This document shows, in pieces, positions 10,301 through 22,464 of a DNA stretch of 23,191 nucleotides (positions are counted from its first letter, which is position 1; each line of letters starts with the position of its first letter). The DNA lies in IMG/VR virus record IMGVR_UViG_3300042387_000412, positions 1 through 23,191 of that record; one strand, given 5' to 3'. A program made the position numbers and the translations under genes. The notes beneath the pieces are model-generated. The model was not told the origin of the DNA, ran no database searches, and was given only the letters and a program-made list of their open reading frames with translations. Source of the stretch: a virus.

Positions 10301-10670
10301 TACTGGTTACTATACTGGAGCGACTGGAACTGCATATACTGCATACTTTATTGGTCCAGCATACACTGGTAATTACACTGGATTCTATACTGGATTCTAT
10401 ACAGGAACTGCATCATATACAGGTAATTATACTGGGTTTTATACTGGTAGTTTCACCAGTGCAGGTAACTTTACAGGATTCTATACAGGAACTGCTATAT
10501 ATACAGGGTTCTATACTGGTTTCTTTACTAGCGTTTATACTTCACCTGCATACGGTGGTTTCTTTACGGGTAATTATACTGGAACATTCGCGGGGACGTA
10601 TTCCGGAGCAACTGTGCTTTCCTCGAAGGACACAATATCAACGGTTAAACTTTGGATTAGGACTGCATAA
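7362..10670 (+). CDS. Giant Tyr/Gly/Thr/Pro repeat fibre-like protein (paralogue 1)
   Basis: An 1102-residue protein with three parts. Residues 1-259 form a non-repetitive head (motifs YTAGQYRLQATAP, GGTWQARYTLTDVANGG, FRNRIIDTNIGTYKLQ, LGTSTTDTREQVSP). Residues 260 to about 1082 are repeats built on aromatic-X-Gly-X, mostly 14-residue units of the type YTGFYTGPSTPGTP. A short tail closes with GTYSGATVLSSKDTISTVKL and WIRTA. The head and tail are closely shared with the next gene, so the pair arose by duplication. Internal variants include two copies of a LKWDVADLNG segment and a Pro/Gly-rich piece (FPGEPGPPI). The frame stays open through more than 2.4 kb of repeats, implying selection. There is no signal peptide or enzyme motif. 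Location after the baseplate genes suggests a fibre or surface decoration; the receptor and fold are unknown. SD-like AGG lies about 10 nt before the ATG. Confidence 0.82.
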   Translation: MNPLKVKASTTPITSAVFSGLEPLTNAEVQNYIANVITTKFATDTTGSGAAEINITTDNSGSGTSIGTFVDTDRTEATGTHPATGDITTTTYYVKQVTAPVSESVTARPVAWHSDGIRRMTDANLDGVLDTVISAFVSESEYTAGQYRLQATAPTGGTWQARYTLTDVANGGNTTTYLWQKTAASTVANDSLAPLKSNDANSLKIMTAAEIEQLVPNFRNRIIDTNIGTYKLQATAPGGGTWVELGTSTTDTREQVSPQNYVGNYTGTYSGAYGSPPYTSPFTSPGYSNNFSAGYTGPANYTGVFTGAGPTYTRSFSGVYTRTIVENFVTYSRAYTGSYTGPAYTTQRDGIPYSVDAPSYTGFYTGPSTSGETFTGFYTGPSTPAPSYTGFYTGPSTPAPSYTGFYTGPSTPGTPYTGFYTGPSTPGETFTGFYTGPSTPAPSYTGFYTGPSTPGTPYTGFYTADLTPAPAYTGFYTGPSTPATPYTGFYTGFYTLKWDVADLNGMPSGQIPAFFSGTYIGDSTPGTPYTGYYTGPSTPATPYTGYYTGDSTPGTPYTGYYTGPSTPGTSYTGFYTLKWDVADLNGFPSGQLPAFFIGYYTGGASPATPYTGFYSGTNPGGSFTGTYTGDGPPEQDFMGPILTPYVGNYSGSPVTQNYLGTYTGVPSLEFYEGYEPGPPIFPGEPGPPITNYRQALVPGNYSGWYTSTGPGIYTGFYQGVVPTIAEYTGFYTLVGNPTGPYTGYYTGDSTPGTPYTGVYSAQPVSKSFTGPSTPGTPYTGFYTGPSTPATPFTGFYSGPSTPGTPYTGFYTGSSTPGTPYTGFYTAQAVPKSFTGFYTGPSTPATPYTGFYSGPPIQPGTLVPRPGGAGPGDPGPLFVPTRYTGYYTGDSTPGTPYTGFYSGEPSPATPYTGFYTGPSTPATPYTGYYTGPSTPGTPYTGYYSGEPTPGTPYTGFYSGEPTPGTPYTGYYTGAPIPGTPYTGYYTGATGTAYTAYFIGPAYTGNYTGFYTGFYTGTASYTGNYTGFYTGSFTSAGNFTGFYTGTAIYTGFYTGFFTSVYTSPAYGGFFTGNYTGTFAGTYSGATVLSSKDTISTVKLWIRTA
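8832..8876 (+). repeat. 45-bp direct repeat, copy 1 (LKWDVADLNG segment)
   Basis: These 45 bases recur identically at 9075-9119, 243 bp (81 codons) downstream. The repeat encodes TGFYTLKWDVADLNG, a non-tetrad insertion; past the identical stretch the two copies stay similar (MPSGQIPAFF versus FPSGQLPAFF). This indicates segmental duplication of a longer block inside the array. Confidence 0.9.
9075..9119 (+). repeat. 45-bp direct repeat, copy 2 (LKWDVADLNG segment)
   Basis: Identical to 8832-8876 across 45 bases and in the same reading frame. Recombination between the two copies would remove or add exactly 81 codons without a frameshift. Confidence 0.9.
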
Positions 10671-10672
10671 CT

Positions 10673-13204
10673 ATGGTTCTTAGAATTAAATCTTCTGCGA
10701 CACCAGTAACCTCTGCAAATATGCAGGGGTTGCAGGCAATGTCTGTAGATGAAATCAAAAATTATGTAGCAAATATCCTAACAGTTTCCTTTGGTGCGAA
10801 TGCTGATGGTACAGGTACTGGTGAAATTAATATCACCACAAATAATACTGGCACAGGAACTGCAATCGGAACCTTTGTTGATACAGATCGTCAAGAGGCA
10901 ACAGGAACTCACCCAGCTACTGGTGCGATTGATACTGTAACATATTACGCAAAGCAGGTATCTGCTGCGGCGACTGAAAGTATTACTAATAGACCGATCA
11001 AATATTCCACTGACCGCATCAAAGAAATGTCTGATGCAGAAATTGATAGTGAATTGCTTGATTATGCTATTTCTGCGATGGTCGCCGAAAGTTCGTATAC
11101 TGCTGGACAATATCGTCTACAAGCAACTGCCCCCAGCGGTGGAACGTGGGTTTCTCGCTACACACTGACTGATGTTGCAAACGGTGGTAATACTCTTACT
11201 TACCTTTGGCAGAAAACTGCGGCGACTAGCACTCCAGATACAAGTCTTAAACCACTTAAACTGATCAATACCAAGGACATTAAAGAAATGTCCTCTGGCG
11301 AAATTCTGCAGATGCTACCAAGTTTCCGTAATAGAATTATTGATTCTGGTTTAGGGACATACAAGGTTCAATCTTCAACACCATCTGGCGGAACATGGGT
11401 CCAATTAGGAACTTCTACTACTGATACCAGAGAACAAATTTCGCCAAGTAACTATGTTGGTAACTATGTTGGTAACTTCAGTGGTAATTATGCTGGTGGA
11501 TATGTAGGTCCAGCAAACTACTCTGGTGGATACTCTGGCACTTTTGCAAATAACTTTAGTGGTGGATTTGTTGGTCCAGCAAACTATTCCGGAACATATT
11601 CTGGCACTTTTGCAAATAATTTCAGCGGCGGATTTGTTGGTCCAGCAAACTACTCTGGTGGATACTCTGGTAGTTATGCCAACAATTTCAGCGGCGGATA
11701 TATAGGTCCAGCAAACTATACGGGCAACTATGTCGGTAACTTTTCTGGTACATACTCAGGAGCCTATGCAGGCACTGCTCCATATTCCGGATCATACTCA
11801 CAAGGATTCAGCGGTAACTATGTTGGAGGTTATGTTGGACCTGCCCCATATTCTGGTTCATACTCACGAGGATTCAGTGGCAACTATGTTGGTGGTTACG
11901 TAGGTCCAGCAAACTACTCTGGTTCATATTCTCGTGGATTTAGCGGCAACTATGCTGGTGGTTATGCTGGCACTGCTCCATATTCCGGAACATATTCAGG
12001 AAACTTCAGCGGAACTTACCTAGGAACTTTTGCAGGTTCTAGAAACTATGCTGGTAACTATGCCAGCAACTTTAGTGGCAACTATACTGGATTCTTTGCT
12101 GGTTCGAGAAACTACGCTGGATCTTATGCAGGTAACTTCTCAGGAAACTATGTAGGTTTCTTCTCGGGTTCAAGAAACTATGCTGCATCCTATGCAGGTA
12201 ACTATCTCGGAACATATTCAAGAAACTTCTCTGGAACCTACCTAGGAAACTTTAGTGGCAACTATCTCGGATTCTATGCACCATTTTTCGGTGGTTTCGT
12301 TGGAACAGCATTTGCTGGTAACTATCTAGGAACTTATGCGAGTAACTTTAGTGGCAACTATCTCGGATCATTCAGCGGTAACTATCTTGGAAATTATGCT
12401 GGATCGAGAAACTATGCTGGTAACTATGCGGGAACATTTAGTGGAAACTATGTAGGTTTCTTCTCGGGTTCAAGAAACTATGCTGCATCCTATGCAGGTA
12501 ACTATAGTGGCAACTATCTTGGCACTTTCTCTGGTTCAAGAAACTATGCTGCTAATTATGCTGGCAACTATAGTGGAAACTATGTAGGGAACTTTACTGG
12601 TAACTATATTGGTCCCGCAAACTATACTGGATTCTATGCGGGTAACTACACTGGATTCTTTACTGGATTCTATGCAGGAACTGCTACATATACTGGAACA
12701 TATACAGGCAACTACACTGGGTTCTTTACTGGTAACTATATTGGTACAGCAAACTATACTGGAACATATACAGGCAACTACACTGGATTCTTTAGTGGAA
12801 ACTATATTGGTCCAGCAAACTATACAGGTAATTATGTTGGATTCTATGCGAGAATTTTTTCAGGATTCTATGCAGGAACTGCTACCTATACGGGTACATA
12901 CACTGGAAACTTTAGTGGCAACTATACTGGATTCTATGCAGGAACTGCCACATATACAGGAACCTATTCTGGGAACTTTACTGGCAACTATACAGGATTC
13001 TATCTAGGAAGTGCTACCTATACGGGTACATACACTGGGAACTTTACTGGCAACTATACAGGATTCTATCTAGGAACTGCAACATATACTGGTTTCTATA
13101 GCGGATCGTATACGCAGTCGTTTTCAGGAACCTATTCTGGTGCGACCATTCAAGCGACTAAAGACACCATCTCAACAGTATATTTGTGGGTAAAAACTGC
13201 ATAA
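10673..13204 (+). CDS. Giant Tyr/Gly/Asn/Ser repeat fibre-like protein (paralogue 2)
   Basis: An 843-residue protein starting two bases after the stop of paralogue 1, with AGGA at 10659-10662. Its first 259 residues align with paralogue 1 throughout (IGTFVDTDRQEATGTHPATG, YTAGQYRLQATAPSGGTW, RYTLTDVANGGNT, FRNRIIDSGLGTYKVQ), and the tail is nearly the same (GTYSGATIQATKDTISTV, then YLWVKTA). The middle (260 to about 823) is also aromatic-X-Gly-X but without the Pro/Ser/Thr spacers: units such as NYVGNFSG, NYAGGYVGPANYSG and GSRNYAGNYAG. Head and tail are therefore conserved while the repeat core has been replaced or has diverged. It is probably a fibre or decoration protein made together with paralogue 1. 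There is no signal peptide or catalytic motif. Confidence 0.82.
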   Translation: MVLRIKSSATPVTSANMQGLQAMSVDEIKNYVANILTVSFGANADGTGTGEINITTNNTGTGTAIGTFVDTDRQEATGTHPATGAIDTVTYYAKQVSAAATESITNRPIKYSTDRIKEMSDAEIDSELLDYAISAMVAESSYTAGQYRLQATAPSGGTWVSRYTLTDVANGGNTLTYLWQKTAATSTPDTSLKPLKLINTKDIKEMSSGEILQMLPSFRNRIIDSGLGTYKVQSSTPSGGTWVQLGTSTTDTREQISPSNYVGNYVGNFSGNYAGGYVGPANYSGGYSGTFANNFSGGFVGPANYSGTYSGTFANNFSGGFVGPANYSGGYSGSYANNFSGGYIGPANYTGNYVGNFSGTYSGAYAGTAPYSGSYSQGFSGNYVGGYVGPAPYSGSYSRGFSGNYVGGYVGPANYSGSYSRGFSGNYAGGYAGTAPYSGTYSGNFSGTYLGTFAGSRNYAGNYASNFSGNYTGFFAGSRNYAGSYAGNFSGNYVGFFSGSRNYAASYAGNYLGTYSRNFSGTYLGNFSGNYLGFYAPFFGGFVGTAFAGNYLGTYASNFSGNYLGSFSGNYLGNYAGSRNYAGNYAGTFSGNYVGFFSGSRNYAASYAGNYSGNYLGTFSGSRNYAANYAGNYSGNYVGNFTGNYIGPANYTGFYAGNYTGFFTGFYAGTATYTGTYTGNYTGFFTGNYIGTANYTGTYTGNYTGFFSGNYIGPANYTGNYVGFYARIFSGFYAGTATYTGTYTGNFSGNYTGFYAGTATYTGTYSGNFTGNYTGFYLGSATYTGTYTGNFTGNYTGFYLGTATYTGFYSGSYTQSFSGTYSGATIQATKDTISTVYLWVKTA
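12143..12205 (+). repeat. 63-bp direct repeat, copy 1
   Basis: These 63 bases recur identically at 12443-12505, exactly 300 bp (100 codons) away and in frame. They encode the segment GNYVGFFSGSRNYAASYAGN plus the following Tyr. This is a recent-looking internal duplication in the repeat core. Confidence 0.9.
12443..12505 (+). repeat. 63-bp direct repeat, copy 2
   Basis: Identical to 12143-12205. The exact 100-codon spacing means recombination between the copies changes fibre length without breaking the frame. Confidence 0.9.
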
Positions 13205-13209
13205 ATCTA

Positions 13210-13238
13210 TTGACTTTGTAGCAATTATTATATATACT
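13210..13238 (+). promoter_or_regulatory. Sigma70-type promoter (TTGACT, 17 bp, TATACT)
   Basis: A -35 box TTGACT (13210-13215) and a -10 box TATACT (13233-13238) are separated by exactly 17 bp, each with five of six consensus bases. They lie in the 69-bp gap between the repeat protein and the next + strand gene. The predicted start is near 13245. It sits immediately upstream of the three-gene + operon of the accessory island, so those genes could be transcribed by unmodified host polymerase, as early or middle genes are in T4-like phages. Confidence 0.7.
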
Positions 13239-13273
13239 GTTACCATGACTATTATTTCTAATGGAGAATTGAA

Positions 13274-13744
13274 TTGATTAATACCTCACCTGTAGTTACC
13301 CGTAAGATCGAAAATCCTTATTGGGCGAATAAAGAACGTCAGCATATCATCGCTGAGTTTTTCTATCCTGACACTAATAAGCGTGTTACTGCATCCATCA
13401 TGAATGATGGTAGCAATCGTGATTACGAAGAAGTGATGCGTCTCTATAGTATCGGGCAGATCGATGCCAATACTGATCGGCGCATGGAAGAACGAAATAA
13501 TCAAATAAAGCAAAACCTTGAACGTCAGAAGGTAGACAAGACTCGCGTGCAACAAGAACAATTGTTTGCTGCTAAGTTGGATGCCTTCGAACTTGATATA
13601 GTTAAAAACTCTAAGAATCGCGATTTAAAATCTAAGATTCGCAAGTCTAAGACGTTTATGGAAGTCACTGCATACACAGTAATGTTACTGATGCAAGAAG
13701 AAGCGAATACTGCTATTGCGCAAGAAGCAGTTGATGCCGAATAA
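13274..13744 (+). CDS. Charged helical protein of unknown function (TTG start)
   Basis: A 156-residue protein. The only usable start in frame is TTG at 13274: the frame is closed by a TAA at 13259-13261, and GGAG at 13263-13266 is spaced seven bases from the TTG. The N-terminal part (NPYWANKERQHIIAEFFYPD, residues 14-33) looks like a small beta domain followed by an acidic segment (NDGSNRDYEEVMRLYSIGQI). Residues 70-105 are highly charged and probably coiled coil. The C-terminal third (SKNRDLKSKIRKSKTFMEVT) is helical. I recall similar hypothetical proteins among marine T4-like phage structural genes but no assigned function. It is the first gene behind the sigma70-type promoter and overlaps the glycosyltransferase-like gene by 11 nt. 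An assembly or chaperone role for the fibres is possible but unsupported. Confidence 0.75.
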   Translation: MINTSPVVTRKIENPYWANKERQHIIAEFFYPDTNKRVTASIMNDGSNRDYEEVMRLYSIGQIDANTDRRMEERNNQIKQNLERQKVDKTRVQQEQLFAAKLDAFELDIVKNSKNRDLKSKIRKSKTFMEVTAYTVMLLMQEEANTAIAQEAVDAE

Positions 13745-14429
13745 TGGATTCCTGTACGTTGCCACAATCCGCAAAGGTTACTACAGGGCAGCAAGAAACT
13801 CGGCAATTTCTTTAAAAGATTATTTTCCAGATGCAAATATCACATTCTTCACCCAAGAAGAATGGGTGCAACCAGATGATTATGAAATTTTTGATAATGT
13901 AATTACCGAAAATGTTCCTCGCGATAAACGAGCAAAACTTTGGGCGCTCGATCAGACTCCGTATGACTTGACAGTTTATATGGACTGTGATACTGAAGTC
14001 GAACACGAAGACATCCAAAAGATTTTTGATCAGATCCCAGAGGATACCGATGTTATCTTCACTGCCAATCGTCCGTATAACGCAGCACTGACCAAGTTAT
14101 CCGAGACAGAAGAAATGACTGAGCATTGTGGGTTGTTTGTCTATCGGAATAATCCACAAACCTTAGAGATGATGCGTGCTTGGTATGACGAGTATTGGGC
14201 GCAAAATAAACCAGAATGGGATCGCAAACATTATCCAAAATCTGCCTTGCAGTGGGATACGTTTACGATGTGGAGACTCCTCAACCAGTTTGATTTTGGG
14301 GTAAAGGCAGGTCGGTTTCCCGACCCAGATGCTCGATGGAATTTTGTCGCTGGATATAAAGAAGAAGAACTCCAAGGACAACCGAGAGTGATTTATCATT
14401 ATACTATCCCGCACGGTATGTTAGATTAA
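13734..14429 (+). CDS. Glycosyltransferase-like protein with DCD motif (GT-A type)
   Basis: A 231-residue protein. I chose ATG 13734, which overlaps the preceding stop by 11 nt; the earlier TTG at 13716 is possible but lies deep in the upstream gene. The N-terminus (GFLYVATIRKGYYRAARNSA) resembles the first strand and helix of GT-A nucleotide-sugar enzymes. Residues 81-87 (VYMDCDT) give a DxD-type metal and nucleotide-sugar motif at D84/D86. Later features (EHCGLFVYRNNPQTLEM, WDTFTMWRLLNQF, VIYHYTIPHG) suit the acceptor half of small family-8-like enzymes. It differs from the four minus-strand glycosyltransferases apart from the shared fold logic, so it is a separate lineage. It shares an operon with the oxygenase-like gene 10 nt downstream. 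Sugar and acceptor are unknown. Confidence 0.7.
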   Translation: MPNNGFLYVATIRKGYYRAARNSAISLKDYFPDANITFFTQEEWVQPDDYEIFDNVITENVPRDKRAKLWALDQTPYDLTVYMDCDTEVEHEDIQKIFDQIPEDTDVIFTANRPYNAALTKLSETEEMTEHCGLFVYRNNPQTLEMMRAWYDEYWAQNKPEWDRKHYPKSALQWDTFTMWRLLNQFDFGVKAGRFPDPDARWNFVAGYKEEELQGQPRVIYHYTIPHGMLD

Positions 14430-14439
14430 GGATTATCAA

Positions 14440-15117
14440 ATGTTGAAATTTACAAATTCAGTCTCAAAAGATCTTACAGATATTTTAGACCCGTTCACAG
14501 AATGGTTCTTCCAACAGAACGATCAACATCTAGTTCTCGGACCTGAAGATATGCAAGCAAAACGTCGCGGCGGACTGAATGTGGACACTGCTACTGATGA
14601 GCAGTATATGAATCATATCGTCAATAAGGGACACAATCATGTTGGATTTCCTGATGTTGCATGGTGCACTGACATGTCTCAGGCACATGGACAACCATGG
14701 TTCCCTTCTGAATATGGCAGAAGGCAGCAAGAAACAAATTCTGAATTAATAAATTATCTCGGTGCTAGAAATAATGCGGTCTTCACATATTATCCAGAAG
14801 ATGGGTTTATGGGATGGCACACTAATTGGAATGCGTCTGGTTATAATATTCTCATTACATATAACTCAGAAGAAAATGGCGGATTTTTCAGATATCTCGA
14901 TCCTGTAACAAAAGAAGTTGTCACTATGGTCGATCCAAAGGGATGGTCATGCAAGGTTGGTCACTTCGGCGATCGCAGCGATCCAAACAAAATCGTATAT
15001 CACTGCTGTGGTAATACTGCGAAGAGATTGACACTAGGATATGTTGTACCGCATCTAGAAATCTGGCGCTCAATGATTGAAGACATAAGCGGCGAGGATG
15101 CCTCTCACTTTTCCTGA
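14440..15117 (+). CDS. Probable double-stranded beta-helix protein, 2OG-Fe(II) oxygenase-like (HxN variant)
   Basis: A 225-residue protein with AAGGA at 14428-14432, seven bases before the ATG. The core pattern is FTYYPEDGFMGWHTNWNASG, with H127-T-N129, followed by NILITYNSEENGGFFRYLD, then KIVYHCC (H188) and KRLTLGYVV (R196). This is the order expected for a jelly-roll 2OG-Fe(II) oxygenase: HxD, distal His, then Arg binding 2-oxoglutarate. I recall related proteins with the GWHTNWN signature in marine phages. The usual HxD aspartate is Asn here, so catalysis is uncertain; it may be a divergent oxygenase or a non-catalytic cupin. Possible substrates are proteins or surface sugars. The final 13 bases overlap the end of a convergent minus-strand gene. 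Confidence 0.6.
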   Translation: MLKFTNSVSKDLTDILDPFTEWFFQQNDQHLVLGPEDMQAKRRGGLNVDTATDEQYMNHIVNKGHNHVGFPDVAWCTDMSQAHGQPWFPSEYGRRQQETNSELINYLGARNNAVFTYYPEDGFMGWHTNWNASGYNILITYNSEENGGFFRYLDPVTKEVVTMVDPKGWSCKVGHFGDRSDPNKIVYHCCGNTAKRLTLGYVVPHLEIWRSMIEDISGEDASHFS

Positions 15118-15725
15118 GTGCTTTTAACCTCACTATATTTTGCGAGTAGATCTTCCAGAATAGTCAACTGTTCATGCATTTTTTCAATATCATCTAATAA
15201 CTTAGGAACTGCAATTCTTGCTCGCTCGAGGATTGCAGTTTCATAGTTTTTAATTCCAACATTTGTAGCAGACTTAATTCGACGGTTTCTAAATAATGTT
15301 TTAATTTTACTAATTAACGATGGAATTTTTGGTGTCATGTTTAATTGAATCATGTGTTGATTGTTGCGCTGATCAGTTGCCTGTTGCCGCATCTTTACAA
15401 TTTGTTCTTCTTTTGCTCTTTCCGCTGCTTCTTTTTCACGTGTAAGTCTTTGGTTTTCTTCGCGTAAATTTTGCAACTCAGCAGAAATTCTAGATTCCTC
15501 TTCTGCTTTCTTTCGCTGCAATTCTTCATATTTTTCTTGTGCGATTCTTCCCTTCTCAAGTTCTTCTTGAGAAGGTTCAATAATTTCAACTTCAACAATT
15601 TCTTCTTGGAAATTTCCTTCGATCCACTCCTCCACAACCACTTCCTCGGGTGGAGGCGGCACTGACACTAAAGGTTCTGGAATATAATCTTGCGGAGGTG
15701 GTGCGACGACTCTTGCTCTACCCAT
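15105..15725 (-). CDS. Proline-rich coiled-coil protein of unknown function
   Basis: A 206-residue protein, last in the minus-strand operon, with AGGGA upstream of the ATG at 15725 and one base separating it from the methyltransferase stop. Residues 1-30 are Pro-rich and acidic (VAPPPQDYIPEPLVSVPPPP), residues 31-50 are strongly acidic, about 52-120 form a long Glu/Lys/Arg/Gln coiled coil, 128-150 are basic (KIPSLISKIKTLFRNRRIKS), and a second helical stretch covers 168-200. The architecture resembles scaffolds or rod-like virion or assembly proteins rather than an enzyme. No family is recognised. Its 3' end overlaps the convergent + gene by 13 bp. Confidence 0.7.
   Translation of the reverse strand: MGRARVVAPPPQDYIPEPLVSVPPPPEEVVVEEWIEGNFQEEIVEVEIIEPSQEELEKGRIAQEKYEELQRKKAEEESRISAELQNLREENQRLTREKEAAERAKEEQIVKMRQQATDQRNNQHMIQLNMTPKIPSLISKIKTLFRNRRIKSATNVGIKNYETAILERARIAVPKLLDDIEKMHEQLTILEDLLAKYSEVKSTQEK
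15551..15575. repeat. Perfect 10-bp inverted repeat with 5-nt loop
   Basis: CCTTCTCAAG at 15551-15560 pairs with CTTGAGAAGG at 15566-15575 around the loop TTCTT. It lies inside the coiled-coil coding region. Neither strand has a T-run after the stem, so it does not look like a standard intrinsic terminator. It may be a chance result of Glu/Lys-rich coding. Confidence 0.55.
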
Positions 15726-15726
15726 A

Positions 15727-16383
15727 TTATTTTTTCCCTATTACCATGAAGCGGTCGAACTCGACCTTACCATCCCAACTGTAATATGACTGCTTAATAG
15801 ATCCCTTGTAGAAAACATCAGTAACTCCAATATTCTCGATGTGCTCTTCAATCGTTGGTACGCAATTAATACCATACATTTCTTTGAATACATTTGACGA
15901 TTGGCAGGCAAAAATACAATCTGGGTTTGCAGTTGTCATTTTCTTGAGGGGGTACATGGTCTCACAACAAAGAGAAATAACAACATCTGTTTCTAGTGCA
16001 TTGATATCATGATATGCAAACGGAATATCCCAATTGATGTGATTTAACTCAACACCCGTGTTGGAATAATACCTATTAAACACTTTAGAGAGTTCCAATG
16101 CATCTTTGTCGATATCGATTAAATTAATTTTCTTGACGTTTAGATTTTCGCATAACAATGGAACGAGCGGAAACCCCAACCAAGAATTCAAAACCGTAAT
16201 ATTTAATTGCTTGGTTACATCTACGCATTTCTGCAATTCTTCTACCAACCAGATAGCAGCATCCATAGTATTTGGATTCAAAGACTTACGAAAGTCTTCG
16301 TGTTTAAACGGCATTTCGTGATTGATCTTTTCTAGACCTTCACCCCAATAACGATAGTTGTTTAAGTAATTATAATTTAACAT
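15727..16383 (-). CDS. Probable SAM-dependent methyltransferase (class I, divergent)
   Basis: A 218-residue protein. ATG 16383 is preferred over ATG 16407 because a GGAAAG sits about eight bases upstream, and it leaves a short 14-bp overlap with the preceding gene. Residues 62-70 (ITVLNSWLG) occupy the place of Rossmann motif I, though lacking the usual GxGxG; LIDIDKD (88-94) is the acidic loop after the second strand; DVVISLCCETMYPL (123-136) fits motif IV; and the end, FDRFMVIGKK, resembles a final strand. An N-terminal segment (NYRYWGEGLEKINHE) may cover the active site. The substrate is unknown; the position between glycosyltransferases and a coiled-coil protein suggests sugar or protein methylation. 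The fold call is moderate because motif I is degenerate. Confidence 0.6.
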   Translation of the reverse strand: MLNYNYLNNYRYWGEGLEKINHEMPFKHEDFRKSLNPNTMDAAIWLVEELQKCVDVTKQLNITVLNSWLGFPLVPLLCENLNVKKINLIDIDKDALELSKVFNRYYSNTGVELNHINWDIPFAYHDINALETDVVISLCCETMYPLKKMTTANPDCIFACQSSNVFKEMYGINCVPTIEEHIENIGVTDVFYKGSIKQSYYSWDGKVEFDRFMVIGKK

Positions 16384-17053
16384 CTTGTGGTCTTTCCATT
16401 GAATCATATAAACAAATAAGTGGTTCTTCGCGCAGGACTTGTTCTCTTACATCTGTCGGCCACATATATCCGTAGTTGTAACTATATACCCAACCGTCTG
16501 GGAAATGGTCAATTTTCAGAAGACGTTCTCTTTGATGCCCGAATAGATTGTCGAGACCGCGATAATAGAAGAACATTTGATCTGCATAATCTGTGACGAA
16601 CTTGGTGATTTTGTCGATATCTAACCTATCATTCCACCTCAACACGCTAGAATTTAAGTCTGTATATTTGTGCGGAATATCTTGGGTGTCTTGTTTCATT
16701 TTCTTCATGTTATGCCAATGAGTGCGAACAAAAGTTAAACCGTCTTCCGGATCATGATCAACGATGCAATCGATATTGTTTTGAATACCGATATCAAGAT
16801 CTAGAAAAAGTTTTTCTCCTTTTTGCTTAACAACATTTCGGTCAAAAAGATATAACTTATTCCACCATTTTTCGTAGTAGTTATCCTCGGGTAATGGGAT
16901 GACATTAATTTCTGGACTTAATCCACCAGAATGTTCGGTCAAACAATAAAAATTAAATTCTGTTGTAATGTGTTGTTTGCATTGTTCGAGAATTTTATTG
17001 ACATCTTCCGAATCATATTTGAATCCCCACTTTACTGTGTAAATATTAATCAT
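16370..17053 (-). CDS. GT-A-like glycosyltransferase, paralogue D of a four-gene array
   Basis: A 227-residue protein. ATG 17053 overlaps the stop of the upstream gene by one base (TAATG); the TTG further upstream is less likely. The opening (INIYTVKWGFKYDSEDVNKI) matches the shared opening of its three neighbours. A DxD motif occurs at D85/D87 (LFLDLDIGIQ), followed by LNSSVLRWND, then YYRGLDNLF, then FPDGWVYSYNYG, the same motif order as the others. It is the most diverged copy and one of the two shortest. It probably transfers a sugar from a nucleotide donor in the cytoplasm, as no signal peptide or membrane segment is visible. Donor and acceptor are unknown. Confidence 0.75.
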   Translation of the reverse strand: MINIYTVKWGFKYDSEDVNKILEQCKQHITTEFNFYCLTEHSGGLSPEINVIPLPEDNYYEKWWNKLYLFDRNVVKQKGEKLFLDLDIGIQNNIDCIVDHDPEDGLTFVRTHWHNMKKMKQDTQDIPHKYTDLNSSVLRWNDRLDIDKITKFVTDYADQMFFYYRGLDNLFGHQRERLLKIDHFPDGWVYSYNYGYMWPTDVREQVLREEPLICLYDSMERPQDVKL

Positions 17054-17871
17054 TATACATTCCAATGTTCTAAGAGATCAGGATCAACAAGCGATTCCTG
17101 CTTCACTTTCCCTCTGCTGTTGTCTGTAAATGGAAGTAAATCCACATTAAAAACACACACAATACAGTCCTTTCTATATATACCGACTTCAAGGTCGCCT
17201 GAATCCCAGTCGCGTCCGCGATTGTAAGAGTAAGCAAAGGTATTTGGAAAATGTTTCCATAATGGAGTATCGCTAAAGTCTCCCCATCGCCAACTATGAT
17301 AGTTGTCAGTTCCATCGGTGAACGTGAACCAAATACGTTCTTGATGTTCTAGCACATCCTGCCAGATGCACTCTGTCTGATCATCTGACCACACCATACA
17401 ACTACCATTAGTATATGCGCCATGGGAAAGTTTGAAGTTGCGAGACTTCATCGGTCTCGGATCTTGCCACCACGAGCGCAACTTGGTAGGATTCTCTAGG
17501 TCATAAGTGATGATTGGCGACAAATCATTTTGTATGATAACATCGAGGTCGAAGAATACAAATCTGCCAGTTGGTTTATCGTCTGCGAAGTTGTGGGTGT
17601 TGAAGATAAAAGTCTTTGGTCTGTCCCAACAACGTGCCATGCCGTATTTGAAATCCTCAGAACCGAACCAGTATTTTGGGTGGATGTCAGGAATGTCTGG
17701 GAAGTCGATGACTTTAATTTCAGTGTCAAACCCTTCACTATTATCTGTGTAGCAATAGAAGTGAAACTCAAAATTATCTGGGGTATGCTTCTTTGCCATT
17801 CGATAAAGACGATTGACAAACTCAGCGGAATACTTTGTTCCCCATTTACAGCAAACGTAATTAACTCTCAT
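17053..17871 (-). CDS. GT-A-like glycosyltransferase, paralogue C
   Basis: A 272-residue protein and the longest of the array. ATG 17871 is chosen over the GTG at 17883 because GGA lies seven bases upstream and the start overlaps the preceding stop as ATGA. The opening (VNYVCCKWGTKYSAEFVNRL) and FYCYTDNSEGF match paralogue B strongly. The metal-binding DxD is D108/D110 (FVFFDLDVIIQ). NGSCMVWSDD, TDGTDNYHSWRWGDF and HFPNTFAYSYNRGRDWD follow. HPKYWFG (also present in B) suggests B and C are the closest pair. A cytosolic sugar-transfer role is inferred from the family fold; the substrate is unknown. Confidence 0.77.
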   Translation of the reverse strand: MRVNYVCCKWGTKYSAEFVNRLYRMAKKHTPDNFEFHFYCYTDNSEGFDTEIKVIDFPDIPDIHPKYWFGSEDFKYGMARCWDRPKTFIFNTHNFADDKPTGRFVFFDLDVIIQNDLSPIITYDLENPTKLRSWWQDPRPMKSRNFKLSHGAYTNGSCMVWSDDQTECIWQDVLEHQERIWFTFTDGTDNYHSWRWGDFSDTPLWKHFPNTFAYSYNRGRDWDSGDLEVGIYRKDCIVCVFNVDLLPFTDNSRGKVKQESLVDPDLLEHWNV

Positions 17872-18626
17872 TCGCAGTTCCACAATCTGAGAATGTCTTC
17901 ATGTTCGCATTCCAATAACTTAATTTGCTCTTTAGCAGAAGGATGGGGAACATTATCCGTATTGAATAAGCAAATCTTGGCATCGGATCGAAACTTAAAT
18001 CGTTCAATATCATCTGGGTAATGCTTTCCTCGATTCCAAGAATAAATCCATCCGCCTGGAATGTCTTTCCAGAAATCCCTCTGTCTCCAGTAATGATAAT
18101 TATCGCTCCCCTTGAAGAAAGTTTTAAATATCGATTCGGAATTCTCGATGGCATCGTTGTAGATATGTTCGCATGATTTACCAGGCCAAAGCATCATACT
18201 AGAATTGTAGAATGTTCCTCGAGTATCAATAAACAGTCTGTCATGTTTCTGTGATTGTGGTTGCCAGCGGCATTGAATTATACGAGGTTTCTGAGCAAGT
18301 TCTTCAATGTCAGATATATCTTCTTGGATCACAAGGTCAAGATCAAAATAGCACCAGTCACCTATGTACCCCAACCAGTTGTGTGAATTAAATACTAAGA
18401 ACTTTGCTCGGTCAAAACAGAAGGTTTCTTTACCAAACCAATATTTTGGATGTAGAATACCATCGTCTGGTATAGGCGCAGTGTCGCAAATTAAACCATC
18501 GGTATCATCAGTATAACACGTGAATGTAAACAGGTTGGGGTAGTTCTTCTTTACCATGTTGTAAAGATTGTTCACATATTTGGCGGGATACTTATCACCC
18601 CACTTAATGCATACGAAGTTCATCAT
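17868..18626 (-). CDS. GT-A-like glycosyltransferase, paralogue B
   Basis: A 252-residue protein starting at ATG 18626 (a second ATG follows directly at 18623) and overlapping the end of paralogue A by 23 nt. Motifs in order are MNFVCIKWGDKYPAKYVNNL, FTCYTDDTDGL, HPKYWFGKE, YFDLDLVIQED with the DxD at D95/D97, FYNSSMMLWPG, FKGSDNYHYW, IPGGWIYSWNRG and a final ICLFNTDNVPHP. It pairs most closely with paralogue C. The C-terminal NTDNVPHP element (NVDLLPF in C, NGLDQFPG in A) follows the last strand and may close the active site. The glycosyltransferase call rests on the conserved DxD and overall motif order. Confidence 0.78.
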   Translation of the reverse strand: MMNFVCIKWGDKYPAKYVNNLYNMVKKNYPNLFTFTCYTDDTDGLICDTAPIPDDGILHPKYWFGKETFCFDRAKFLVFNSHNWLGYIGDWCYFDLDLVIQEDISDIEELAQKPRIIQCRWQPQSQKHDRLFIDTRGTFYNSSMMLWPGKSCEHIYNDAIENSESIFKTFFKGSDNYHYWRQRDFWKDIPGGWIYSWNRGKHYPDDIERFKFRSDAKICLFNTDNVPHPSAKEQIKLLECEHEDILRLWNCE

Positions 18627-19281
18627 ATTCTTTATCTGCTCCAGGAAACTGGTCTAACCCATTTAGTAATGCTATAGTATAGTCTGGTCTATACCAGAAA
18701 GATTTATTGTGGTCATCTATACCATAATAGTCTGCGCCATATACGAACGAATATATCTCACCTTTCGGAAAGTAATTAAATCTAAAATCTTCGTGCCATA
18801 AGAACCTGTCGTCACCAAAATACTTAACCATGAAGTAATCTGGATTTGATTGAAAGTGCTCCCATATATGATGAACAGTCCCATCTTTCCACATCATTAC
18901 GCTCGAGTTGTAATTACTTAAATACCGCATGCCATGAGTTTCTCCGACATAATCAGGAAACTCTATATTCTTCCAGTAAGTATACGCTATTGTTGGATGA
19001 ATGTCAAGGTATTTCCACAGATGATCAATATTTTTTTGAATACGAATATCTAGATCCAGATAAAGAACATCACCAAACCCTCGTTGACTGAACATCCAAA
19101 CCTTATACCAGTGACCTTCTATATCATCTGGCAACGGCCAAGGAACAACAATTGGATCCAATCCAGTCGGGTCGTCGGTAAAACATACGTATGTATATTT
19201 CCTGCCTGTATCTTTGACGATTCTATTCACATCATCGGCAGAATATTTTGTGCCATATTTAAGCATTATAATTGTTTTCAT
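18604..19281 (-). CDS. GT-A-like glycosyltransferase, paralogue A (first gene of the minus operon)
   Basis: A 225-residue protein. The frame extends further upstream, but ATG 19281 has GGAG five bases away and gives the MKTIIMLKYGTKYSADDVNR opening shared by the array. Other motifs are YVCFTDDPTGLD, WYKVWMF, LYLDLDIRIQKNI (DxD at D76/D78), NYNSSVMMWKDG, YFGDDRFLWHEDF, YFPKGEIYSFVYGADY and the C-terminal NGLDQFPGADKEYDEL. It shares the 50-bp divergent intergenic region with the first + gene of the right block and is probably transcribed from the late-like box at 19314-19321. The substrate is unknown. Confidence 0.78.
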   Translation of the reverse strand: MKTIIMLKYGTKYSADDVNRIVKDTGRKYTYVCFTDDPTGLDPIVVPWPLPDDIEGHWYKVWMFSQRGFGDVLYLDLDIRIQKNIDHLWKYLDIHPTIAYTYWKNIEFPDYVGETHGMRYLSNYNSSVMMWKDGTVHHIWEHFQSNPDYFMVKYFGDDRFLWHEDFRFNYFPKGEIYSFVYGADYYGIDDHNKSFWYRPDYTIALLNGLDQFPGADKEYDELRMH

Positions 19282-19295
19282 CACAACTCCAAAAT

Positions 19296-19303
19296 TATAA
19301 ATA
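19296..19303 (+). promoter_or_regulatory. T4-type late promoter box TATAAATA (+)
   Basis: An exact match to the T4 late-promoter -10 element (recognised by the phage sigma factor gp55 in T4), in the 50-bp gap between divergent operons. The expected start is about six bases downstream near 19309, leaving a leader of some 23 nt with AAGGG before the ATG at 19332. Exact 8-mers of this composition occur by chance a few times per 23 kb, but the intergenic placement favours function. Confidence 0.65.
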
Positions 19304-19313
19304 GTGTCATAGT

Positions 19314-19321
19314 AATTTATA
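19314..19321 (-). promoter_or_regulatory. T4-type late promoter box TATAAATT (-)
   Basis: The minus strand reads TATAAATT, seven of eight bases of the T4 late consensus. The expected start is near 19308, about 27 nt before the glycosyltransferase ATG at 19281, with GGAG in the leader. It faces the + late box at 19296-19303, so the two start points nearly coincide and each transcript runs through the other promoter. Confidence 0.5.
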
Positions 19322-19331
19322 AGGGTTCCCG

Positions 19332-19661
19332 ATGGCACAAATTCAAAATATCTATATCGACCAAGGAACAACTTTTTCTTTGTCTCTTATGGTAAATGAT
19401 CAGAACGGGGATCCGAAAGATCTTACTGATTATACTGCTGCAGCACAAATGCGCAAATCATATTATACTAATACTTCCGTTAGTTTTACTGCTGAAATTA
19501 CTTTACCAGAAGATGGTGAAGTTACTATTTCATTGACTGCTGTGCAAACATCAGCAATAAAAGCAGGGAGGTATGTTTATGATATTGAAATTACAGGCGA
19601 TGGCGAAACGCTACGAGTTCTCGAGGGGATCGTCGTAATTAATCCAGAGGTAACAAAATAA
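19332..19661 (+). CDS. Small virion or baseplate-associated protein, Ig/BppU-N-like fold
   Basis: A 109-residue protein with AAGGG six bases before the ATG. The sequence opens with IYIDQGTTFSLSLMVNDQNG, then DLTDYTAAAQMRKSYYTN, and ends GRYVYDIEITGDGETLRVLE followed by GIVVINPEVTK. This is a pattern I recognise from many phage baseplate or tail proteins (a short beta-sandwich like the N-terminal part of BppU), where it probably acts as an adaptor to the virion. There is no catalytic motif. It is first in the right block and overlaps the next gene by one base (TAATG). The fold is confident by pattern; the exact role is not. Confidence 0.75.
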   Translation: MAQIQNIYIDQGTTFSLSLMVNDQNGDPKDLTDYTAAAQMRKSYYTNTSVSFTAEITLPEDGEVTISLTAVQTSAIKAGRYVYDIEITGDGETLRVLEGIVVINPEVTK

Positions 19662-19876
19662 TGTCTTTAAAAGTTACAGTAGGAACTTCAAATACTATAA
19701 ATACAAATATAGTAAGTAAAAGAACATCAACCAAAATAGAAACGTTGGCAGATGTGGATGTAGACGGTATCCAAGATGGATACACTTTAATTTACAACAC
19801 TGCTACCAACAAATGGGAAGCGGCGAATCCTGCATCTGAGGTGGTATTAGATAATATAGACGGTGGAACGTATTAA
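19661..19876 (+). CDS. 71-aa structural mini-protein ending in DNIDGGTY
   Basis: A 71-residue protein whose ATG overlaps the preceding stop by one base. The first half (MSLKVTVGTSNTINTNIVSK) has no clear family. The second half (ADVDVDGIQDGYTLIYNTAT, then NKWEAAN) resembles a short linker found in phage fibre proteins ahead of their last domain. It ends with NIDGGTY, shared with the 563-residue fibre encoded next and close to the GGTYTT end of the 68-residue protein downstream. It is likely a minor virion component. An exact TATAAATA lies within its first 45 bases. Confidence 0.68.
   Translation: MSLKVTVGTSNTINTNIVSKRTSTKIETLADVDVDGIQDGYTLIYNTATNKWEAANPASEVVLDNIDGGTY
19696..19703 (+). promoter_or_regulatory. 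Possible internal T4-type late promoter box TATAAATA
   Basis: An exact 8-of-8 match inside the 71-aa gene, about 205 bases before the fibre gene start at 19908. It could give extra late transcription of the 563-aa fibre gene. Because it lies in coding sequence and such 8-mers arise by chance, confidence is low. Confidence 0.3.
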
Positions 19877-19907
19877 TAACGAAGACAACCAAAAAGGAAT
19901 AGTCTAA

Positions 19908-21599
19908 ATGTCAACAATTATTCAAATTAAAAGAAGTTCAGGTGCAACTGCTCCAACAACATCCGCCCTCCTAGAAGGCGAAATGGCATACGCACAAGAC
20001 GCCAGCAATAGCGGCGCTGGTGCAAAACTTTACATCGAATCGGTAGAAGGCGGAAGTGCCGCAATTCACGCAGTCGGTGGTAAGTATTTCACAGACAAGG
20101 TTGATGCTCGTCTTATCGACGCAACATCATCAGTTGGTGGTAAAGCAACCTTTGCTGAAGGAACAGATAACGGTTCCAACAAAGTAACTCTGAAAGCACC
20201 AGATACACTTGCTGCTGATCTTACTTTGATCCTTCCAACCGCAGACGGTACAAACGGGCAGATTCTTACCACAAATGGTTCAGGTCAACTTGCATTCGCT
20301 TCACCTGCTTCGTCAACATTCACAATCAGCGATAACCAAGGAGTTCCTAATACGGATTCCTTCTCGACTGGTGGAACTCTGACTTTTGCTGGTTCAGCTG
20401 GTGTCAAGACAACAGTTTCAGACAACCAAGTTGCTATCGCTGCTGATATTACTGGCGCTACTGCTCTGACATCACTTGCTGATGCGGATGAGTTCCTTGT
20501 TTATGATGCTTCGGCAACTGCAAACAAGAAAATTACTGCTGAAGATATTGGCGATTACATCTATGCTGCCGTTTCTGGCGACATTACAATCAGTGAATCA
20601 GGTGTTGCTTCGATTGCTGCCAACTCGGTTGCTCTTGGAACTGATACAACTGGTAACTATGTTGCTACTGTTGCTGGAACTGCAAACCAAGTTGCAATCA
20701 CAGGTTCAGGTTCTGAAGATGCTGGCGTAACTGTTGCTCTTACAGACAACGTTGTTCTTGTTGGTGACCTAACAGTTGGTGGTAACGACATCAAGGCATC
20801 TGGCGGAACAACTTCTATCACTCTTTCGGGTGCAGATGTTGCCGTTGCTGGCGACCTAACAGTTACAGGAAACGACATTAAGTCATCTTCTGCTACTGCG
20901 ATTACACTTGATGCTGCAAACGTTGCTATTGCTGGTGATCTTACCGTAACTGGTAATGACATTAAGTCATCTTCTGCTACTGCTCTAACACTTTCGGGCG
21001 CAGACGTTACTGTTGCTGGCGATCTTAAGATCGGCGGAAATGACATCAAGGCATCAGACGGAACTACTGCTCTTACACTTTCGGGTGCTAACGTTACTGT
21101 TGCAGGAAACCTAACAGTTTCGGGAACAACAACTACTGTTAACTCGACAACTCTAACTGTTACCGATCCTCTCGTATTCGTTGGTAACGACAACAATGCA
21201 ACCGACGCAGTTGACATCGGTCTGTTCGGTATGTATGATACCAGCGGTTCGCTAGACCTTTATTCAGGTCTTTTCCGCGATGCTTCGGACGGTAAGTGGA
21301 GACTCTTCAGAGATTCACAAGTTGCTCCAACAACAACTGTTAACACAGGCGCAACTGGTTATACCATTGCTACTCTTGTTGCTAACCTCGAAGGCGGAAC
21401 TATTGCTTCGCTTGCTTCAGCAATCGGCGTTGCAGACGGTGGTACTGGTGCACAAACACTGACTGCTAACGGTGTTCTCTTCGGTAGCGGAACTTCTGCT
21501 ATCCAAGCAACCGCAGTTGGAACTGCTGGTCAAGTTCTAAAATCTGGTGGTACAGGTGTTGCTCCTTCGTTCGGTAATATCGACGGTGGAACATACTAA
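19908..21599 (+). CDS. Tail fibre-like protein with GDLTV repeats
   Basis: A 563-residue protein with AGGA at 19895-19898. The N-terminus (STIIQIKRSSGATAPTTSAL, LLEGEMAYAQD) is a phage fibre attachment-type opening, also seen in the 116-aa protein downstream. About residues 285-405 contain four or five 28-29-residue repeats (GDLTVTGNDIKSSS, then ALTLSGADVTVA), probably forming a trimeric beta-stalk. The module VNSTTLTVTDPLVFVGN, then DIGLFGMYDTSGSLDLYSGL and KWRLFRD, is a module I recognise from marine T4-like phage fibres. The C-terminus has GVADGGTGAQTLTANGVLFG and ends NIDGGTY. There is no enzyme motif. Its role is an extended, probably trimeric virion fibre; the receptor is unknown. Confidence 0.85.
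   Translation: MSTIIQIKRSSGATAPTTSALLEGEMAYAQDASNSGAGAKLYIESVEGGSAAIHAVGGKYFTDKVDARLIDATSSVGGKATFAEGTDNGSNKVTLKAPDTLAADLTLILPTADGTNGQILTTNGSGQLAFASPASSTFTISDNQGVPNTDSFSTGGTLTFAGSAGVKTTVSDNQVAIAADITGATALTSLADADEFLVYDASATANKKITAEDIGDYIYAAVSGDITISESGVASIAANSVALGTDTTGNYVATVAGTANQVAITGSGSEDAGVTVALTDNVVLVGDLTVGGNDIKASGGTTSITLSGADVAVAGDLTVTGNDIKSSSATAITLDAANVAIAGDLTVTGNDIKSSSATALTLSGADVTVAGDLKIGGNDIKASDGTTALTLSGANVTVAGNLTVSGTTTTVNSTTLTVTDPLVFVGNDNNATDAVDIGLFGMYDTSGSLDLYSGLFRDASDGKWRLFRDSQVAPTTTVNTGATGYTIATLVANLEGGTIASLASAIGVADGGTGAQTLTANGVLFGSGTSAIQATAVGTAGQVLKSGGTGVAPSFGNIDGGTY
20761..21122 (+). repeat. In-gene repeats of about 84-87 bp (GDLTV-type) in the fibre stalk
   Basis: Four full copies and a partial fifth encode GDLTV-GGNDIK/TGNDIK followed by a Ser/Thr-rich turn and a LSGADV strand. 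Neighbouring copies share long near-identical stretches (for example around 20850-20890 and 20934-20974). Confidence 0.8.
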
Positions 21600-21936: not shown

Positions 21937-22258
21937 TGAGACTCCTGGAGCAGCACCAACTGGTGCAGATCTAGCGATTGGCGAACTTGCTGTTAATTTG
22001 GTAGATAAGAAAATTTACTCTAAAAAGACCGACGGAACAGTTGTTGGTCTCGGCGGAGTCGCAGTAAATGATGGTGGGGCGGATGCGGGGGTGACGACCA
22101 TCTCTTTCGCGGACACCATCTTCGGGGATTTCGTTGTTGATACTACAACAACTCCAGGCATTGCAGTCGTTCGCTTAAATCAAAACGCAGATTTAGATTA
22201 CGGTCTTATTACCGACAATGTTTTTGAGTACAACTCAATCGATTACGGGAGCATCTGA
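21908..22258 (+). CDS. Short fibre or appendage protein with anchor N-terminus, ending IDYGSI
   Basis: A 116-residue protein starting inside the previous gene (29-nt overlap). The N-terminal half (TIVQVKRSETPGAAPTGADL, AIGELAVNLVDKKIYSKKTD) is the generic fibre N-terminal module that in many phages precedes long variable fibres; it is related to the opening of the 563-aa protein. The remainder is short (VAVNDGGADAGVTTISFADT) and ends FEYNSIDYGSI, reminiscent of the DYGS-type termini I recall from cyanophage structural proteins. It is therefore an anchor module with almost no fibre body. Its stop overlaps the next start (TGATG). Confidence 0.75.
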   Translation: MSTIVQVKRSETPGAAPTGADLAIGELAVNLVDKKIYSKKTDGTVVGLGGVAVNDGGADAGVTTISFADTIFGDFVVDTTTTPGIAVVRLNQNADLDYGLITDNVFEYNSIDYGSI

Positions 22259-22464
22259 TGGCAGCAAGAGTCAAACTGAGAAGAGGTACTTCCACACAGC
22301 ACAATTCATTTATCGGTGCGGAAGCAGAAATTACTGTAGACACTACAAACAATACGCTAAGGGTGCATGATGGTACCACTGCTGGTGGACATGAGTTGTT
22401 GAAAACCACTCTAGCAAATATAGAAGAAGGTGCCATTATTAATGGTGGAACATATACTACCTAA
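22258..22464 (+). CDS. Stand-alone Mtd-N-like module (68 aa)
   Basis: A 68-residue protein. LRRGTSTQHNSFIGAEAEIT, then VDTTNNTLRVHDGTTAGG, matches the remembered N-terminus of the Bordetella phage major tropism determinant (FRGGTTAQHATFTGAAREIT, VDTDKNTVVVHDGATAGG). In Mtd this module is the N-terminal, trimer-forming base of the receptor-binding protein. Here it is followed only by a short tail ending INGGTYTT. The gene starts on the preceding stop (TGATG). It is a paralogue of the N-terminus of the next gene. It is probably a small virion component or cap; there is no sign of a variable lectin domain or reverse transcriptase nearby. Confidence 0.78.
   Translation: MAARVKLRRGTSTQHNSFIGAEAEITVDTTNNTLRVHDGTTAGGHELLKTTLANIEEGAIINGGTYTT

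Follow-up and report, generated by a model that had tools for sequence, protein, structure and literature searches.

Tail fibre genes and glycosyltransferase genes stand together downstream of the structural gene VrlC in the host recognition cluster of pelagimyophages, where GT8 is the commonest glycosyltransferase family and, in the accessible part of the article, the enzymes are taken to be O-chain modifiers (PMC7029224). Cyanophage clusters of glycosyltransferases, some with 2-oxoglutarate (2OG) oxygenases and methyltransferases, are read in the accessible part of a review as concerned with polysaccharide modification or a secondary metabolite (PMC7824862). The stretch considered here (the window) is the whole of the 23,191-base virus record IMGVR_UViG_3300042387_000412, and its relatives are IMG/VR contigs. 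Like the pelagimyophage cluster it has fibre genes and glycosyltransferases downstream of VrlC, both being from T4-like aquatic phages, but it has a feature that the accessible part of that article does not describe (PMC7029224): a trio of genes, gA, gB and gC, linked to genes for fibre proteins built of aromatic tetrapeptide repeats. On balance, though by a small measure, we favour the trio being a maturation module for the repeat tail fibres encoded just upstream, modifying them. That it serves these fibres, within this set of phages, is well supported by gene linkage; the mechanism, to judge from predicted folds and motifs, is most likely glycosylation and oxidation.

Human LH3 and the mimivirus collagen enzymes, the latter viral, are also hydroxylase and glycosyltransferase activities devoted to a repetitive fibrous protein, as far as the accessible parts of the sources go. 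However, these enzymes act on Lys of collagen repeats, and Lys is absent from the tetrads of 60 of the 77 non-redundant repeat proteins of the present family. Glycogenin glucosylates its own Tyr, and the target of pneumococcal GlyE is a serine-rich repeat adhesin. A literature search, with poor coverage of subscription journals, found no description of the trio, and no paper on the eukaryotic parallel of a hydroxylase with a glycogenin-like enzyme (Skp1). Phage C48C1 (OQ984149) has relatives of the giant repeat protein, gA, gB, gC and the later gene o19 in identical order, all but the o19 relative annotated as hypothetical. It differs from the window in having no minus-strand cassette there, with one gI relative standing some 40 kb away from the repeat gene. 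Its repeat protein (CDS0201; L092, 34011–44054) has 3,347 aa; its tetrad stretches are interrupted by several non-repeat insertions, and TSTRTSTR runs occur in it.

The first-pass annotation of the window had drawn attention to two giant upstream proteins rich in Thr, Ser and Tyr, one of them in Pro as well, and this description is borne out. Both rep1 (7362–10670, plus strand; 1102 aa) and rep2 (10673–13204, plus strand; 843 aa) contain tandem repeats, 14-aa PSTPGTPYTGFYTG-type units in rep1 and [YF]xG tetrads in 22-aa units in rep2, and their N-domains are 61% identical. Read on the copies in locus L002, the repeat region of rep1 is 14% Pro, 14% Tyr and 28% Ser plus Thr, and that of rep2 is 26% Tyr plus Phe, 22% Gly and 2% Pro. 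Across the 77 repeat proteins the commonest tetrad frame is [ND][YF][TSAV][GR], and Tyr, Thr and Gly each occur in the tetrads of every one, though in that of L298 Tyr is nearly absent (0.8% of tetrad letters). When tandem GxZxG tetrads are counted over the distinct open reading frames (ORFs) of the loci retrieved, the aromatic share is 97.9% of 3,386 in the repeat family versus 14.5% of 325 in other ORFs, a set that includes a structural protein of cyanophage S-RIM2 and a Tyr-tetrad protein of L341. The other ORFs, that of S-RIM2 included, keep the same frame with mostly V, L or I. The S-RIM2 protein (L257, 7408–13146), with its GN[VL]TG tetrads, thus shares the tetrapeptide frame of the window's family while having V or L for Tyr or Phe; no S-RIM2 record appears among the matches to gB or gC, and no gB- or gC-type gene is annotated in the S-RIM2 stretch inspected.

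Directly 3′ of rep2 on the same strand are gA (13274–13744, overlooked in the first-pass annotation), gB (13734–14429) and gC (14440–15117). Three scans with gC profiles, blind to repeats, gave 172 loci, and removal of 60 whose gC sequence duplicated another left 112 distinct ones. In 85 of these (83 from virus scans, two from bacterial bins) gC has upstream of it gB, gA and an aromatic-tetrad repeat protein, which in every case both matches the family profile and has 6 or more aromatic i/i+4 pairs within 60 residues. Of 14,267 ORFs that do not match the profile, 485 reach 6 such pairs and 45 reach 8. Fourteen of the remainder are too near a contig end, one (L341) is rearranged, and nine, all from the genome-contig scan of bacterial bins, are distant relatives with neither gB nor a repeat protein. 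A gA-like ORF follows gC in L340. Contigs filed under a Bifidobacterium breve (L338) and a Muricauda (L339) metagenome-assembled genome appear to be phage contigs binned into bacterial genomes, since repeat protein, trio and cassette genes are all aboard; the L338 gC is 92% identical to that of the window.

The association holds from the other side too. When repeat proteins were the query, 34 of 36 loci had room for the trio and all 34 had it (a count not deduplicated). In a distant marine set, whose members are only 26–35% identical to the window, 65 distinct repeat-protein loci were left after 14 duplicates were dropped; gA, gB and gC are present in all 40 with at least 2.3 kb of room, and among the 25 shorter ones 23 have none of the trio, one has all three and one has two. 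The scans keep the best 80 loci of at least 585, of 477, of 382, of 268 and of 462, and the best 79 of 167 for the marine set, so that the counts apply to those relatives that are closer to each query. In a search of 50,697 annotated phage records, gB is found in a single one, that of Phage C48C1, and a gC-like sequence in two, one of them partial and weak; a VrlC match at E 1e-20 is found in 900. Because trio and repeat family are linked both ways, action of the trio on the fibres is the favoured reading.

The likely start of gB is the ATG at 13734 within an ORF of 13716–14429. Its AlphaFold model (pLDDT 93.4) has a GT-A fold, and the nearest solved structure is glycogenin. Glycogenin-1 (3t7n) aligns by VIA with Z 17.4 and a root-mean-square deviation (rmsd) of 3.2 over 189 residues, and GlyE (5gvv), also among the nearest solved folds, with Z 16.2 and rmsd 3.0 over 196. 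Identity over the aligned parts is, however, just 20% and 14%, and gB has no Pfam match to GT8, the family of glycogenin; sub-threshold matches to GT2, Nucleotid_trans and DUF7910 are all that Pfam gives. No significant family was found for gB in Pfam, NCBIfam or PHROGs, and its profile has no match at E up to 1 among the sequences of solved structures. The DxD motif, D87 and D89, is invariant in 21 sequences. gB is a GT-A glycosyltransferase-like protein, with sugar transfer as its putative activity. Its partner gA, a charged protein of about 156 residues that looks coiled-coil-like by eye in the alignment, matches weakly two PHROG families of one member each and is a candidate fibre chaperone.

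The single double-stranded-beta-helix oxygenase-like protein of the first-pass annotation is gC. Its AlphaFold model (pLDDT 94.8) matches PHD2 in Foldseek (E 3.3e-6), with prolyl hydroxylases also matched, and VIA aligns it with PHD2 (3oui) at Z 10.6 and rmsd 3.4 over 147 residues. H127, N129, H188 and R196 are invariant in an alignment of 21 sequences, with R196 where the oxygenases have a basic residue that binds 2OG. The two His are mostly 60–61 residues apart, and an Arg stands 8 residues after 128 of 135 candidate second His. The His–His spacing in PHD2 is similar. The likeness to PHD2 and the prolyl 4-hydroxylases therefore extends from the fold to the spacing of the two His and the following Arg; the difference is that gC has HxN rather than HxD and that Pro is no general residue of the repeats. 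N129 would take the place of the metal-binding Asp, a placement made by motif and not by coordinates. Neither Pfam, NCBIfam nor PHROGs provides a usable family for gC, and its profile has no match at E up to 1 among sequences of solved structures. A WHTN motif is common to proteins on the bacterial-genome contigs L342, L343, L345, L347 and L349, so an oxygenase fold with HxN is not restricted to the phage group of the window.

Several points weigh against the trio being fibre-modifying enzymes. To begin with, published accounts of glycosyltransferases from regions of this kind lean towards modification of host polysaccharides, in the accessible parts of the sources (PMC7029224, PMC7824862). 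The usual HxD/E...H metal triad is replaced in gC, with HxN in 129 of 133 distinct sequences (the remaining four did not fit the search pattern), and TM-scores of the model to solved oxygenases are low, 0.31–0.42 on the query among the Foldseek matches listed. Since Asn stands where the iron-binding Asp or Glu is expected, gC may be inactive or do other chemistry. In three of the 112 loci (L293, L304 and L313) gA and gB accompany a protein with the family N-domain but few repeats. In L347 and L348, which are probably phage because VrlC- and orf3-like genes are aboard, a distant gC relative (33–34% identity over 89 residues) comes soon after VrlC in the company of a large structural-looking ORF of 3,192 residues, with no gA, gB or aromatic tetrads, so the gC fold is not confined to aromatic-tetrad fibres. 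Finally, in distance matrices for 79 loci the trio is not singled out: correlations with the repeat domain are 0.917 for gC, 0.889 for gB, 0.870 for gA and 0.849 for o19, and that between gB and o19 is 0.934.

The L347 and L348 stretch, at about 7650–20255, runs from the VrlC-like and orf3-like genes through two further genes, the HxN-oxygenase relative and a 115-aa gene to the 3,192-aa ORF, possibly a parallel arrangement of an oxygenase near a giant protein without gB.

The HxN motif of gC would fit gB and gC being enzyme folds turned to a chaperone or structural role, in which they fold the fibre without chemistry, as would the position of the trio between the fibre genes and the fibre-assembly-like gene o19. 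Such assembly factors are an unlikely explanation in our estimation: a pure chaperone does not need the four residues of gC or the DxD of gB, yet these are invariant in the 21 sequences of each alignment. The distance correlations, similar for all neighbours with o19 among them, are what would be seen if trio and repeat gene were swapped as a block and the enzymes acted elsewhere in the virion or cell, so that position alone accounted for the linkage. This we consider very unlikely, as the block is broken in two loci. gB and gC are apart in L341 and L429, and can therefore part, yet each still adjoins a Tyr-tetrad protein. An ordinary repeat protein precedes gA and gC, and elsewhere in the locus gB comes after a Gly-rich, fibre-like protein (L341, 3959–5113; L429, 3448–4647) that carries Tyr tetrads between Gly-rich, mostly different flanks, as if the tetrad repeat were a mobile module; the L429 version matches the repeat-family profile weakly (34 bits). 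Common gene order and glycosyltransferases 59% identical mean that L341 and L429 are counted as one event.

If the trio does modify the fibres, tetrad composition has a bearing on which residue might be the acceptor. With Thr in the tetrads of all 77 proteins, Ser/Thr is the economical choice; Tyr is possible, and Asn, missing from the tetrads of just one protein, is conceivable. A collagen-type acceptor, Lys or Pro, is not a general feature of the repeats. Lys was rejected on the count given above. Prolyl hydroxylation of the fibres, as put forward in the first-pass annotation, does not stand as a conserved function: Pro is absent from the tetrads of 45 of the 77 proteins and comes to 1.5% when their repeat regions are pooled, rep1 of the window being the outlier. 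A more specific version would have a glycogenin-like enzyme glycosylating Tyr, along with Ser/Thr, of aromatic fibres in a phage-specific manner, the HxN oxygenase-fold partner carrying out unusual chemistry (such as aromatic or beta-hydroxylation, or halogenation) and the tetrads forming a mobile substrate module. This we regard as decidedly unlikely in its entirety.

The first-pass annotation had treated 13,205–19,331 as a single surface- or fibre-modification cassette. It is rather two modules on opposite strands, the plus-strand trio and a minus-strand group gD–gI whose glycosyltransferases are accessory. gD (15105–15725), like gA missed at first, has a Pro-rich N-terminus with the rest charged and helical-looking, and is not detected in some cassettes. 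The methyltransferase assignment of gE (15727–16407) is weak, the best Pfam match being Spermine_synth at E 0.028 and 14.4 bits against a cut-off of 22.9, and gE is at most a possible S-adenosylmethionine (SAM) methyltransferase. The remaining four, gF (16370–17053), gG (17053–17871), gH (17868–18626) and gI (18604–19284), are glycosyltransferase-like with a DLD motif that is invariant in 12 sequences, and together with gB they account for the five DxD proteins originally noted. They are paralogous (blastp identities 24–38%, E 7.3e-11 or better; gG and gH are 38% identical, E 1.7e-54). The profile of phrog_1962 ('glycosyltransferase') matches gF (E 4.1e-11), gI (E 8.9e-13) and gH (E 0.0035) and has no match to gG, which has no PHROG match of its own. 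No NCBIfam match and no Pfam glycosyltransferase family was found for the four, and against sequences of solved structures their profiles gave four matches at E up to 1, the best at 0.058. As to kinship with gB, the blastp match to gI covers 23 residues only (E 0.7), one profile comparison gave E 0.051, on 17 columns that do not include the DxD, and a second E 0.05 over 110 columns with the DxD in register, as against 0.24–0.44 for five unrelated pairs.

In near relatives of the window the cassette sits between gC and o19, but in Phage C48C1 and many marine members there is none at that position, and of the 85 complete loci 37 include a gF–gI relative, the cassette being confined to some lineages. 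The original proposal that the enzymes act on the repeat fibres retains its force for the trio, by the two-way linkage, and loses some for the accessory minus-strand four. It had also been reasoned that frequent occurrence of the cassette in phages without such repeats would count against a fibre substrate. Near gF–gI relatives give no such case: among 59 new loci (the best 80 of 462 less 21 already in the earlier set; not deduplicated) 37 have the trio and a repeat protein, 22 are incomplete with less than 4.5 kb beyond the cassette, and none lacks them where there is room. More distant relatives do: a gI match occurs in 23 annotated phage records, P1 and P7 included, and 22 of these have no match to rep2.

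This last result is in keeping with remodelling of the host surface, whereby the glycosyltransferases, above all the minus-strand four, would alter O-chain or capsule and exclude other phages, the fibre region being a host-recognition island. The location after VrlC, where the accessible text on pelagimyophages has O-chain modifiers (PMC7029224), the cyanophage clusters with their 2OG oxygenases and methyltransferases as covered in the accessible part of the review (PMC7824862), and the separate orientation and lineage-limited occurrence of the cassette all point the same way. Presence of the trio at every repeat-protein locus with room would nevertheless be strict for a modifier of host antigens; the near cassette relatives keep company with trio and repeats, and a Pfam scan of 10 window proteins found no flippase or membrane partner. 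Linkage thus argues against host polysaccharide modification for the trio, less so for gF–gI, and we judge host-surface remodelling somewhat unlikely overall. The cassette may act on the host, or may lengthen a glycan that gB has started.

Transcription signals are consistent with the trio belonging with the fibre genes. The sequence TATAAATA, which we take to be the T4 late-promoter motif, is present in 95 of 96 distinct but related stretches reaching up to 110 bases ahead of o19 relatives (shuffle mean 2.3), and in the window lies at 19296–19303 on the plus strand, 28 bases ahead of o19. In the window alone its two sites, with 1.5 expected, are no surprise. Some repeat genes have it more often than chance would give (24 of 143, with 2.9 expected), and it is near or below chance ahead of gA (3 of 106), gB (0 of 109) and gC (0 of 123). 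Sigma-70-like sites are at chance level (23, with 22.7 expected). Upstream of o19, TATAAATA is a firm candidate for a late promoter in uncultured phages, and its scarcity ahead of the trio genes, together with their order and strand, makes the trio look co-transcribed with the fibre genes. TTTATA is found in 59 of 61 stretches between the glycosyltransferase genes and o19, where it could serve the other strand.

The first long gene of the window (554–6652, plus strand) encodes a VrlC-like structural protein (phrog_358, 1213 bits) that tblastn matches to VrlC-annotated genes of Pelagibacter phage Mosig and Stenotrophomonas phage DLP_6, and it borders the host-recognition region; for this reason the window is taken to come from the part of a T4-like aquatic phage genome that is devoted to fibres or host recognition. 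At the other end the region is closed by o19 (19332–19661, plus strand), an L-shaped tail-fibre assembly-like protein (phrog_3304, E 1.9e-26) that also matches phrog_1084, of unknown function (E 8.3e-29). The next two consecutive structural ORFs, o20 and o21 (19661–21599), both end in the peptide NIDGGTY, and a small ORF at 22258–22464 ends in INGGTYTT, possibly a shared C-terminal tag; o21 contains an 84-base tandem repeat (20823–21103).

The analysis shows the predicted folds of gB and gC, the motifs, the gene order and the linkage, and a course of events that would accommodate them is as follows. The trio would be read out late with the fibre genes, having no late-promoter motif of its own. 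gA may help the long repeat protein fold or assemble. gB would add sugar to hydroxyl side chains of the repeats, most economically Ser/Thr and possibly Tyr, and gC, PHD2- and prolyl 4-hydroxylase-like, would oxidise or at least bind the same repeats. In some lineages the minus-strand cassette, with its four glycosyltransferases and perhaps a methyltransferase, may extend or cap the glycan.

The linkage provides a concrete, testable pairing of enzymes and substrate in uncultured T4-like phages of lakes and seas. It brings with it two protein families to which neither Pfam nor NCBIfam assigned a family here, and a naturally occurring oxygenase fold with HxN that lends itself to activity assays. 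Fibre modification, if it occurs, would change how aquatic phages recognise their hosts and resist proteases, and some fibres could then not be rebuilt from the gene alone.

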